NCBI GenBank assembly: GCA_022820825.1
Contig: JAJEEU010000091.1
Span: 18,898-82,897, forward strand
DNA length: 64,000 nucleotides
From: Vicinamibacteria bacterium
GTDB lineage: Bacteria; Acidobacteriota; Vicinamibacteria; Vicinamibacterales; UBA8438
Direction: 5' to 3'
Made by a program: the position numbers and the translations under genes. The notes beneath the pieces were generated by a model. The model did no database searches. It was not told where the DNA came from and saw nothing but the letters and a program-made list of their open reading frames with translations. This document shows positions 12,562 to 51,645 of this stretch, piece by piece (position 1 is the first letter of the stretch; each line of letters begins with the position of its first letter).

Positions 12562-13107
12562 TTGTCTACCTCGATGGGTCGGGACGGGAACCTGCAGGCA
12601 CTCGGGGTCTACGAGCGCGCCGTCAAGGCCCTGCAACAAGGGCGCTACACGCAGGCCGCCGCGCACTTTCGGAAGGTGATCGACAACTTTCCGGATGTAC
12701 CCGAGCTGCACGAGCGCCGCCGGCGCTATATGGCCGTCTGCGAGCGGGCGTCTCAGCCATCGCCGACACCCGAGACCGTGGAGGATCGCCTGTACGCCGC
12801 TACGCTCGCCCTCAACTCGGGGCTGCAGGACGAGGCCTTGCAATACCTCACCGTGTGCGCGCAGGAGCGTCCCGACAGCGATCACGTGCAGTACATGCTC
12901 GCCGTCGCCCGCGCGGACGCCGGCGACCTTTCGGCCGCCGCCAGCCATCTCCTGCGCGCCGTCGCGCTCAATTCGGACAACCGGTTCCTGGCCCGCAACG
13001 AGCCGAGCTTCGACCGGCTCCGCGCCGACGCCGCGGTGCAGAAGGCATTGGAGACGCCCGGCGCCGGGCCGCGGACCGCGGATTCCGATAGTCCGGCAAC
13101 CAGGTGA
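12562..13107 (+). CDS. TPR-repeat protein
   Basis: YERAVKALQQGRYTQAAAHFRKVIDNFPDVPELHERRRRYM TPR pattern; overlaps glmU start. Confidence 0.7.
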   Translation: MSTSMGRDGNLQALGVYERAVKALQQGRYTQAAAHFRKVIDNFPDVPELHERRRRYMAVCERASQPSPTPETVEDRLYAATLALNSGLQDEALQYLTVCAQERPDSDHVQYMLAVARADAGDLSAAASHLLRAVALNSDNRFLARNEPSFDRLRADAAVQKALETPGAGPRTADSDSPATR

Positions 13108-14522
13108 GCCAGCAGCCCGCCGGCGGCGAAGCGGCCGCCGCACCAGGCGGTCCGGACGCCTGCCATGTCATCGTGCTGGCCGCCGGCCAGGGCCGCCGCA
13201 TGGGCGGGATCCGGCCGAAGGTGCTGCACCGCCTCGCCGGACCCACGCTGATCGGCCACGTGCTGCGAGCCGCCGCCACGCTGGCGCCCGCCTCGACGAC
13301 CGTGGTGGTAGGCCATCAGGCGGACGCCGTCGTGCAGGCGATTGGACCCGGACCGCGTTTCGTCCGGCAGGCGCCGCAGCTCGGCACCGCGCACGCGCTG
13401 CTGCAGGCCGAGCCGGTGCTGGCCGGCTGCGCCGGCAGCCTGGTGGTGCTGTCCGGTGACGTGCCGCGCATCCGGCCGGACACGTTGCGCCGCCTCGCCG
13501 CCGCCCATGCGGCGGCCGGCGCCGCGGCGACGGTCCTCACCGCGGAGCTGCCGCGCCCGTTCGGCTACGGCCGCGTGGTGCGCATTGACGGCCGCTTCGG
13601 CCGGATCGTGGAAGAAACGGAGGCGACGCCGGCCCAGCGGGCGATTCGCGAGGTCAACAGCGGCATCTACGTCTTCGACCTCGTACCGCTGTTCGAGGCG
13701 CTCCGCCGAATCCCTGCCGCGGGGCCGCGGCGCGAGCGCTACCTGCCGGCGGTGCTGTCGCTGTACCGGCGGCAGGGACTGGCCGTGGAAACGGTCGGCG
13801 CCGGCGACCCGCACGAGATTCGAGGCATCAACAGTCAGACCGAGCTGGCGGAAGTGAGCCGCATCATGAGACAGAACAAGAACGAGGAACTGATGGCCGC
13901 GGGCGTGACGATCGAGGACCCCGCGACAACGTACATCGACGACGCCGTCCGCGTCGGACCCGACACGGTGATCCACCCCGGCGTCACGCTCGAAGGGAAC
14001 ACCACCATCGGGGCGCGGTGCGAGCTGCATTCCGGCGTCCGCATCGCCAACTCGGCGGTGGGCGACGACGTCACGGTCAACAACTTCTGCGTGATCACCG
14101 GTGCGCAAGTCGATGCGGGCGGCCGCATCGGGCCGTTCGCGCACCTGCGGCCCGGCACGGTCGTGCGCGAAGCGGCGCGCGTGGGCAATTTCGTCGAGTT
14201 GAAGAAGGCGACGCTGGGGCCCGGCTCCAAGGCCAACCACCTGAGCTACGTGGGCGACGCCACCGTCGGCGCCGGCGTGAACGTCGGCGCCGGCACAATC
14301 ACGTGCAACTACGACGGGGAGTCCAAGCACCGGACCACGGTGGAGGACGGCGCGTTCATCGGGAGCGGCACGCAACTCGTGGCGCCGGTGACGATCGGTC
14401 GCGGCGCGTACGTGGCCGCCGGGTCGTGCGTTACCCGGGACGTGCCGCCCGAAGCGCTGGCGGTGGCCCGCAGCCGGCAGGACAACAAGCCGGACTGGGC
14501 GACCCGGCGGCGGCGGCGATGA
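13104..14522 (+). CDS. glmU: Bifunctional UDP-N-acetylglucosamine pyrophosphorylase / glucosamine-1-phosphate N-acetyltransferase
   Basis: VLAAGQGRRMGGIRPKVLHRLAG, C-terminal LbH repeats, NHLSYVGDATVGAGVNVGAGTITCNYDG. Confidence 0.96.
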   Translation: MSQQPAGGEAAAAPGGPDACHVIVLAAGQGRRMGGIRPKVLHRLAGPTLIGHVLRAAATLAPASTTVVVGHQADAVVQAIGPGPRFVRQAPQLGTAHALLQAEPVLAGCAGSLVVLSGDVPRIRPDTLRRLAAAHAAAGAAATVLTAELPRPFGYGRVVRIDGRFGRIVEETEATPAQRAIREVNSGIYVFDLVPLFEALRRIPAAGPRRERYLPAVLSLYRRQGLAVETVGAGDPHEIRGINSQTELAEVSRIMRQNKNEELMAAGVTIEDPATTYIDDAVRVGPDTVIHPGVTLEGNTTIGARCELHSGVRIANSAVGDDVTVNNFCVITGAQVDAGGRIGPFAHLRPGTVVREAARVGNFVELKKATLGPGSKANHLSYVGDATVGAGVNVGAGTITCNYDGESKHRTTVEDGAFIGSGTQLVAPVTIGRGAYVAAGSCVTRDVPPEALAVARSRQDNKPDWATRRRRR

Positions 14523-14528
14523 GGACCA

Positions 14529-14640
14529 GCCGCGCACGGCGCAGCCCGGCCAGCGCGGCGCGGGGCTATGGGGTCCCCGCTAGCGCTGGCCGGGGGGCTT
14601 GGGGGCGCAGCCCCCATCTGGCAAAGCCGGGTATGCTGTC
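14529..14640 (+). repeat. Structured intergenic repeat, copy A (three-hairpin element)
   Basis: GCCGCGC-ACG-GCGCAGC hairpin (one mismatch); perfect 12-bp stem CCCGGCCAGCGC (14545-14556)/GCGCTGGCCGGG (14583-14594) enclosing GCGGGG/CCCCGC; terminal hairpin GGGGGC-GCA-GCCCCC; shared with copies at 37846..37965 and 51544..51645. Confidence 0.85.
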
Positions 14641-14656: not shown

Positions 14657-16501
<1,845 letters not shown>

Positions 16502-37738: not shown

Positions 37739-37845
37739 TTCCGTTTGGCTCGCCGCGGATCACTTCCCCTTACAAGTGCTGCGTGCGAACGCCCGCTGCG
37801 GGACGGGAAGCGAGCGTGTCCCCAGCCAGGATGGTTGAGTACGCG

Positions 37846-37965
37846 GGGAACGGCGAGCCTCGACGCGGCCGTTCCCAAGGCCGCGCACAGCGCGGCCCGC
37901 CGGCGACGGAGTGGGGCGAAGGGGTCCCCGCGAGTGGCCGGCGGGGGTTTGGGGCGCAGCCCCAA
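37846..37965 (+). repeat. Structured intergenic repeat, copy B (three-hairpin element plus extra 5' hairpin)
   Basis: GGGAACGGC/GCCGTTCCC stem (37846-37854/37868-37876); GGCCGCGC-ACA-GCGCGGCC; CCCGCCGGC/GCCGGCGGG (37896-37904/37937-37945) enclosing GTGGGG/CCCCGC; TTGGGGC-GCA-GCCCCAA (37949-37965). Confidence 0.85.
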
Positions 37966-38004
37966 GAAGGTAAAGCTGCGCAGCCCCATCTAAAGAAGAA
38001 GCAG

Positions 38005-50475: not shown

Positions 50476-51585
50476 ATGGCAATCGGTAGCGTTCCGCTCG
50501 ATCCGCCCTACCTGCTCGCGCCGATGGCGGGCATGACCGACACCGCCTTCCGCCGCCTGGTGAAGCGCCACGGCGGGTGCGGCCTGGTCGTCACCGAGAT
50601 GGTGAGCTCCGAGGGACTCGTGCGCGGCATCGACCGGACGCTCGAGTACGCGGAGTACACCGAGGAGGAACGGCCCGTCTCCATCCAGATCTTCGGCGGC
50701 GATCCGGAGAAGATGGCGGCGGCGGCCCGCATAGTCGAGGCGATGGGCGCGGACATCGTCGACGTGAACATGGGCTGCCCGGTGCCGAAGATCGCCAAGC
50801 ACAACGCCGGGTGCAGCCTGATGCGGGACCCGGCGCACGCCGCGGCGGTCGTGCGGGCGATGTGCCGGGCCGTGCGCATACCCGTGACGGTCAAGATGCG
50901 CGCCGGATGGGACGAGCGCGACATCAACGCGCCGCGGCTGGCGCAGATGATGGAGGATGCCGGCGCGGCGGCGGTCGCCGTGCACGGCCGGACGGCGGCG
51001 CAGTCGTACCGCGGGATCTCCGACTGGCGGCTCATCGAGACGGTGGCGCGCGGCGTGTCGATCCCGGTCTTCGGCAGCGGCGATTGCGTCACGGCCCGGC
51101 AGGTGGTGGACCGCACGGCGGATACCGGGGTGGCCGGCGTGCTGGTGGGCCGCGGCGCGCTGCGCAACCCGTGGATCTTCCGCCAGGCGGCCGCGCTGGC
51201 CGGTGGCGGAGCGGAGCCGGAGGTGACGGACGCCGACCGCGGACAGTTCCTGCTCGACTACATCGAGATGCTGCTCCTCGAGGGCGTGGGCGAGCAGCGC
51301 GGCTTCCGCCACGTGGCGCCGGGCATGCCGCAGGAGCGCCGCCCGCGGCACGCCAGGGGACGCGAGCGCTGGGTAGTCAACAAGCTGCGCGCGCTCGCCT
51401 CGTGGTACACGAAGGGAATCCACGGCGGCGCCGGCCTGCGCACCGCCATCAACACCGCCGAGTCCGTCGACGAGCTCCGCGCGGTCATCCGGCGCTTCTT
51501 CCTGCAGCCCGAGGCTGTCCCGCCACGCCGGCAACCCGGGCAAGCCGCGCACAGCGCGGCTCGGCAAGCCCGGCGCGGGGCATAG
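50476..51585 (+). CDS. dusB: tRNA-dihydrouridine synthase B
   Basis: LAPMAGMTDTAFRRLVKRHGG, VDVNMGCPVPKIAKHNAGCSLMRDP, VHGRTAAQSYRGISDW; C-terminal tail encoded by repeat copy C. Confidence 0.94.
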   Translation: MAIGSVPLDPPYLLAPMAGMTDTAFRRLVKRHGGCGLVVTEMVSSEGLVRGIDRTLEYAEYTEEERPVSIQIFGGDPEKMAAAARIVEAMGADIVDVNMGCPVPKIAKHNAGCSLMRDPAHAAAVVRAMCRAVRIPVTVKMRAGWDERDINAPRLAQMMEDAGAAAVAVHGRTAAQSYRGISDWRLIETVARGVSIPVFGSGDCVTARQVVDRTADTGVAGVLVGRGALRNPWIFRQAAALAGGGAEPEVTDADRGQFLLDYIEMLLLEGVGEQRGFRHVAPGMPQERRPRHARGRERWVVNKLRALASWYTKGIHGGAGLRTAINTAESVDELRAVIRRFFLQPEAVPPRRQPGQAAHSAARQARRGA

Positions 51586-51645
51586 GGGTCCCCGCTAGGG
51601 CTTGCCGGGGGTTTGGGGCGTAGCCCCAGGTAGACAAAGCCAGCG
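51544..51645 (+). repeat. Structured intergenic repeat, copy C (three-hairpin element overlapping dusB 3' end)
   Basis: GCCGCGC-ACA-GCGCGGC (51544-51560); CGGCAAGCCC/GGGCTTGCCG (51562-51571/51598-51607) enclosing GCGGGG/CCCCGC; TGGGGC-GTA-GCCCCA (51614-51628); trailing caaagccagcgtatgctg shared with copy A. Confidence 0.88.

Follow-up and report, generated by a model that had tools for sequence, protein, structure and literature searches.

The closest described systems to the element studied here are the REP, BIME and REPIN families with their RAYT (TnpA-REP) transposases (PMC2817692, PMC3116915, PMC3733652). A GTAG or CGTC tag at the base of the hairpin is a hallmark of REP sequences (PMC3733652). 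The repeat family described below resembles these systems in its more than 100 extragenic palindromic copies per genome, its lineage-specific subfamilies, its mosaic and clustered units and its non-autonomous nature. It departs from them in its unit, a multi-hairpin sequence of 95-135 nt that occurs head to tail, whereas a REP unit spans 20-40 bp, and in its flanks, which read AAG/AGG at the 5' side and ATCTAAC at the 3' side with no GTAG or CGTC tetranucleotide. MITEs and similar small repeats such as ERIC, Correia and Bcr1 are short, non-coding, structured and mobile and lie near genes, and the family shares all of these properties, its mobility being visible in empty sites. Unlike MITEs, the ends of its unit are not complementary and thus form no terminal inverted repeats. 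SINEs and other non-LTR retroelements, of which we know no bacterial precedent, share with it long variable target duplications (at six copies), a common 3' end and an amplified structured sequence, but the family has neither a tail nor a reverse transcriptase that tracks it. Leader RNAs and riboswitches of the kind collected in Rfam have a covarying structure and often lie directly 5' of start codons, as does this repeat, which differs from them by occurring in both orientations, beside mixed gene classes, without an Rfam match and at genes whose orthologues in congeners lack it.

The original prediction described three same-strand copies of one folded element in the window, the 64-kb stretch of DNA analyzed here. 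All three (copies A, B and C, Table 1) lie on the forward strand and are the only full-length covariance model matches in it. The perfect 12-bp outer stem of copy A was confirmed, and the arm pairs of copies B and C are as quoted. Other statements needed amendment. A location between co-directional genes holds in the window and fails across the genome, where the flanking genes are oriented relative to the element as 38 ++, 29 -+, 21 +- and 15 --. The three-hairpin architecture correctly describes the core, while the element often has four hairpins and about 135 nt, copy B included. The extent given for copy A covers a real element, but its last bases, approximately 14627-14640, belong to the putative glmS promoter region outside the repeat; the congener G001 has the putative -10 box found there at its empty site as well. 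At copy C, the reading frame of dus (dihydrouridine synthase) terminates within the element at 51585, and about 14 C-terminal codons consist of copy C sequence (51542-51585); in G001, where the element is missing, dus ends at a stop codon of its own.

Table 1. Positions of the three window copies, their parts and the genes flanking copy A.
Feature	Position	Strand	Basis or remark
Copy A core	14527-14621	+	Covariance model match
Copy A core with 3' tail ATCTGGCAAAGCC, glmU/glmS spacer	14527-14626	+	Absent at orthologous sites in both congeners
Copy A hairpin 1, GCCGCGC-ACG-GCGCAGC	14529-14545	+	G to A breaks one pair in copy A
Copy A central stem-loop	14545-14594	+	Sequence and pairing
Copy A outer stem	14545-14556/14583-14594	+	Perfect 12-bp inverted repeat
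Copy A inner stem, GCGGGG/CCCCGC	14560-14565/14575-14580	+	Within the central stem-loop
Copy A hairpin 3, GGGGGC-GCA-GCCCCC	14600-14616	+	Sequence and pairing
glmS putative -10 box, TATGCT	14632-14637	+	Directly downstream of copy A; promoter role putative
glmU-like gene (NTP transferase, hexapeptide repeats), 5' of copy A	13104-14522	+	Pfam
glmS-like gene (glutamine amidotransferase, SIS), 3' of copy A	14657-16501	+	Pfam
Copy B hairpin 0, upstream, GGGAACGGCGAGCCTCGACGCGGCCGTTCCC	37844-37877 (approximate bounds)	+	
Copy B core, parB/atpH (ATP synthase delta) spacer	37878-37970	+	Covariance model; Pfam
Copy B trailing stump, ..GCTGCGCAGCCCCATCTAAAG	37971-37996 (approximate bounds)	+	
Copy C core, between dus and a further gene	51542-51634	+	Covariance model; Pfam

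Across the family, the unit is about 95 nt long with three hairpins, and about 135 nt where hairpin 0 joins to make four. Its consensus begins with hairpin 1 (GCCGCGC-ACG-GCGCGGC), continues with a long covarying stem, which GCGGGG..GGGGTCCCCGC closes, and with hairpin 3 (TTGGGGC-GCA-GCCCCAA), and ends in a tail that reads ATCTAAC and then either GAAGC(C) or GATGC. The 3' end is common to the copies, and the 5' ends are heterogeneous. Many copies, copy B included, carry the extra variable upstream hairpin GGGGACGGCGAGC..GCCGTCCCC; in the genome that holds the window (G000), this hairpin (GGGGAC..GTCCCC) is found in 73 of 110 copies, about two thirds. Upstream of it there is often AACGGTTGAA-like sequence and in some cases an additional, degenerate unit, and some other copies are fused to a distinct module, TAGCAGCCCGTGG..ACCGAGACCGGTCA. 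The congeners contain head-to-tail arrays with a period of about 95 nt, in which the unit-unit junctions resemble the repeat tail. Small 3' trailing stumps with GCCGCGCAGCCCCATCTAA-like sequence follow some copies, copy B among them, and are probably leftovers of deletion between GCGCA repeats in a second unit. We read the copy B stump in this way, as a second head-to-tail unit that would have collapsed by such a deletion, because tandem units are known in the congeners. A reading of the stumps as 5'-truncated retrocopies was dropped, since deletion between GCGCA repeats in head-to-tail units fits better. An integron attC reading, based on the fit of ATCTAAC to RYYYAAC, was also dropped, as other lineages do not conserve this box.

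Additional repeats accompany the unit. The second module, which starts with TAGCAGCCCGTGG(C/T)GAAACCCCGC, is found at L158:1690-1900 in G001 and in the upstream flanks of L129, L075 and L118 in G000. In G001 it terminates in an imperfect inverted copy (GCGGGGTT..CCACAGACTGCT), termini that a strict inverted-repeat search did not report, and it appears to be a MITE-like family of its own whose copies form mosaics with the three-hairpin unit. In several other Vicinamibacterales families (f6, f12, f13 and f15; L048, L049, L055 and L056), a different long hairpin, AGCCCGTTATGCGGC..GCCGCATAACGGGCT, precedes the unit and contains ACGAGAATTTTGTACCCGTT-like sequence. A further dispersed repeat with a palindromic, GGAAGGGTGAGCATGATCATGCACCCGCGACCCGTGGGTTCGCCCCCGGACCCTTCC-like stretch lies about 300-890 nt 5' of the copies at L017, L012 and L099, with about 80-94% identity among them.

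To establish the size of the family, we searched with a covariance model (R1) built from 32 aligned copies, with the structure of hairpin 1, the long stem and hairpin 3 assigned by hand; the original prediction had proposed a search of this kind. The 4.23-Mb G000 genome gave at least 110 matches, a lower bound from 150 scored candidates, of which 108 lie above 69 bits and the next at 55 and 47, with E-values as low as 1e-13. The number of copies per genome is 108 (full) in G000, 107 in G001 and at least 141 in the second congener, G002, compared with 11-62 in seven of the more distant genomes counted, where three others of the same taxonomic family have 59-62 each and those of more distant families 11-44. 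Altogether, 30 of 100 relatives carry the repeat; they belong to several Vicinamibacterales families, and among 396 genomes spread over the phylum the carriers belong solely to the order of the window. Across families, stem sequences differ by lineage and each lineage has its own subfamilies. The named matches listed are all from Vicinamibacteria or Acidobacteria, with the exception of a single, possibly mis-binned contig from groundwater that bears the label Gemmatimonadetes, and the viral contigs, phages and plasmids that were searched gave no match. One copy from a different genus (L034, G013:C533) has a flank identical to that of the G000 copy L100, and its contig is probably a contamination of the G013 draft. 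The Acidobacteriota are among the commonest soil phyla, and our literature search found no description of such a family in them.

We also considered whether the copies are unrelated GC-rich hairpins, a possibility already raised by the original prediction, or an assembly artefact. The genome is GC-rich, and the G000 contigs C83, C84, C86 and C96 end in or beside the repeat. C84 and C96 start with identical element sequence, and the repeat family therefore fragments draft assemblies. However, the E-values, the sharp score gap, the occurrence in many independent assemblies and the covariation among 119 distinct matches refute this explanation, to which we assign a negligible probability.

The claim that both stem arms change together was supported. 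Two-sided changes at nine pairs in the 32 aligned copies amount to 72 cells, compared with 22.9 in shuffles, and the covariation score is 0.193, compared with at most 0.041 when partners are slid. In the 119 distinct matches, two-sided changes occur at 21 of the 31 modelled pairs, 95% of cells pair, and there are 278 compensated cells against 78.9 in shuffles; a partner shift of 1-3 columns abolishes the signal. In 94 of 108 copies the outer-stem arms pair with no more than one mismatch, while reshuffled arms reach a mean of 33 and a maximum of 45. These arms fall into several multi-copy subfamilies (CGCCGGCC/GGCCGGCG, CGGCGGCA, CGGCAAGC, CGGCCAGC, CGGCAGGC), and the covariation therefore lies mostly between subfamily founders and does not represent 108 independent events. 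In a few copies the left arm comes from one subfamily and the right arm from a second, a sign that copies may have recombined. The folding energy of a four-hairpin copy lies 4 standard deviations below shuffles, and that of copy A alone at -2.5. Wobble counts meant to tell RNA from DNA gave 36 GU and 40 AC cells with two columns set aside. As a whole, the alignments support paired-arm change as the signature of a maintained fold.

Comparison with the congeners shows that copies arise at new sites, because orthologous sites are empty. The glmU-glmS spacer of both G001 and G002 lacks copy A, the site of copy C is empty in G001, and the recN copy of G000 is missing in both congeners, which retain the upstream leader sequence and the start codon. 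Conversely, only G002 has a copy in the spacer between atpC and the gene after it. The site of copy B (parB-atpH) is filled in all three species, but G002 has a unit of its own type there and G001 has rearranged units, and the site may thus be a recurrent one; some sites of this kind may be maintained or act as hot spots. Synteny also breaks precisely at copies: the flanks of L164 (G001:C37) match flanks of L102 and L122 (G000:C101, 60.3 kb and 66.7 kb), two copies that are mutually inverted, a pattern as expected of inversion by recombination between copies. The original suggestion of a REP/MITE-like mobile element is thus supported by the large number of copies, the empty sites at orthologous positions and the subfamilies specific to each lineage.

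Target duplications were seen at a small number of copies. Five G000 copies have flanking duplications of 32-53 bp, and one G001 copy lies within a 72-bp duplication that includes part of a tRNA gene and is single in G000. In total, 6 of about 300 inspected copies show clean long duplications, most of which abut the copies, and the lineage-specific copies A and C show none. At L006, L015 and L026, the duplicated stretch holds the end of the upstream gene, so that the gene remains whole; the genes flanking the L006 duplication are multi-copy. Outside G000, most high-scoring flanking duplications turned out to be adjacent element units. The visible duplications are variable in length (32-72 bp), unlike the short and fixed ones of MITEs.

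Several mobilisers were considered against these observations. One explanation is a REP/BIME family moved by a RAYT (Y1) transposase that has since been lost, or is unassembled, in the genus. It fits the high copy number, the intergenic location, the palindromic units and the subfamilies, and Y1 genes do occur in other carrier genera. However, Y1_Tnp (PF01797) has no match in G000, G001 or G002 (drafts that are 94, 88 and 71% complete), the genomes richest in copies, and no Y1 gene flanked by repeats was found. Nor does its distribution follow that of the element: it is present in 16 of 30 carriers and in 57 of 100 genomes overall. HUH enzymes would not be expected to produce long target duplications, and the unit lacks a GTAG/CGTC tag and is longer than a REP. 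We consider movement by a RAYT very unlikely.

A SINE-like retroelement, in which a folded RNA is inserted by target-primed reverse transcription at staggered nicks, would account for duplications that are variable and mostly abut the copies, and for a shared 3' end combined with heterogeneous 5' ends. The 5' variation is also explained by mosaic modules, though, and GCGCA-repeat deletion fits the stumps better; there is no homopolymer tail. RVT_1 has no match in G001 or G002, and the sole match in G000 (L172:4931-5968, G000:C12), near a contig end, is retron-like with RT-Toprim type I-C as its best PADLOC match. Reverse transcriptases do not track the element either (12 of 30 carriers, 34 of 100 genomes overall), and we regard retrotransposition as quite improbable. 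Clustering of the proteins near copies revealed no recombinase recurring beside them. None of the known enzymes that move such repeats accounts for the family, although this lack of a known mobiliser and the long variable duplications rest on draft genomes and six cases. Because one defining feature each of REP/RAYT elements, MITEs and SINEs was tested and failed, we do not assign the repeat to any of them, and we place it with REP/MITE-like non-autonomous repeats because of its behavior.

The position of the copies relative to genes is not random. With genes called by a simple codon-usage caller, sense copies outnumber antisense copies between co-directional genes by 38:15 in G000 and 22:5 in G001/G002. 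The median distance from the 3' end of the element to the downstream start is 14 nt, compared with 107 nt from its 5' end to the upstream start (p about 1e-9), and the bias was replicated in G001/G002 (p 6e-4, 5' boundary approximated). In about 30 genes, such as recN, trmD, tig and tatD, the last hairpin lies 4-12 nt before the start codon. A Shine-Dalgarno core occupies the usual window in 2 of 30 of these near-element genes, compared with 97 of 248 background genes (39%, p=2e-4). The element tail can carry an ATG: in 26 of 77 copies away from starts, one lies at position 8-9 downstream of hairpin 3, and some start codons may thus be supplied by the element. Start-codon adjacency was at first suspected to be an artefact of ORF calling. 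That many of these starts are authentic follows from the comparison at recN and from conserved N-termini, which we take to be those of RecN, TrmD, trigger factor, TatD, DnaK and further proteins.

These observations bear on the earlier proposals of a structured 5' leader RNA and a transcription attenuator. The latter is not supported, as scans of copies A, B and C showed no terminator-like site within the element and no U-tract follows their hairpins. We do not regard the family as an intrinsic attenuator or a per-gene riboswitch. For a cis-regulatory leader RNA, the fold of each copy would control the next gene and copies would spread as portable regulators. The closeness of the last hairpin to genuine starts, the scarcity of Shine-Dalgarno cores and the sense bias all favor it, as does recN, where the upstream sequence is conserved and the element sits in the leader; copies are probably often transcribed in this way. 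Against it, about one third of the copies point at the 3' end of a gene that runs in the opposite direction. The adjacent genes belong to no preferred class, comprising ordinary housekeeping genes and paralogous families, and their orthologues in the congeners manage without the element. Furthermore, Rfam reported only a tRNA in the window at the gathering score, and when selected copies were scanned below that threshold, no family matched the core of the element credibly. The frequent location before starts therefore stands, while we judge regulation as the general role of the family unlikely.

Taken together, the repeat family is authentic, order-specific, structure-constrained and mobile, and apparently undescribed. 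We consider it probable that the family of copy A consists of non-autonomous, structure-defined, REP/MITE-like mobile repeats of Vicinamibacterales with a putative trans-acting mobiliser. The folded single strand, DNA or RNA, would be the substrate recognized by this enzyme. Only stems that still pair would propagate, and compensated founders would seed new subfamilies. New copies would persist chiefly at the borders of genes, and frequently within the 5' leader before a start codon, where they would probably be transcribed and may alter translation, an effect expected to be a by-product that is at most locally co-opted and not the reason why the family exists. The non-random orientation and position (38 ++ against 15 --, 14 nt against 107 nt) are not required of a purely neutral transposon and count against this interpretation, as do the failure to find a mobilising enzyme, the small share of copies with clean long duplications and the occupation of the copy B site in three species. 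A more far-reaching version can be advanced only tentatively: an order-wide mobile element might insert with long variable duplications and without an HUH enzyme, TIR/DDE system or resident reverse transcriptase, by an integration route not yet described that would act on a folded nucleic acid and target the borders of genes and 5' leaders. If this were true, dozens of genes would gain structured leaders that lack a Shine-Dalgarno sequence.

The repeat offers a natural experiment on how structured repeats are maintained, being abundant, covarying and mobile since the radiation of the genus without a REP transposase. Its long target duplications hint at a way of inserting that is not known from other repeats of bacteria. 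Finally, the strong hairpins directly before the starts of core genes (trmD, tig, dnaK and recN) provide test cases for translation without a Shine-Dalgarno sequence.
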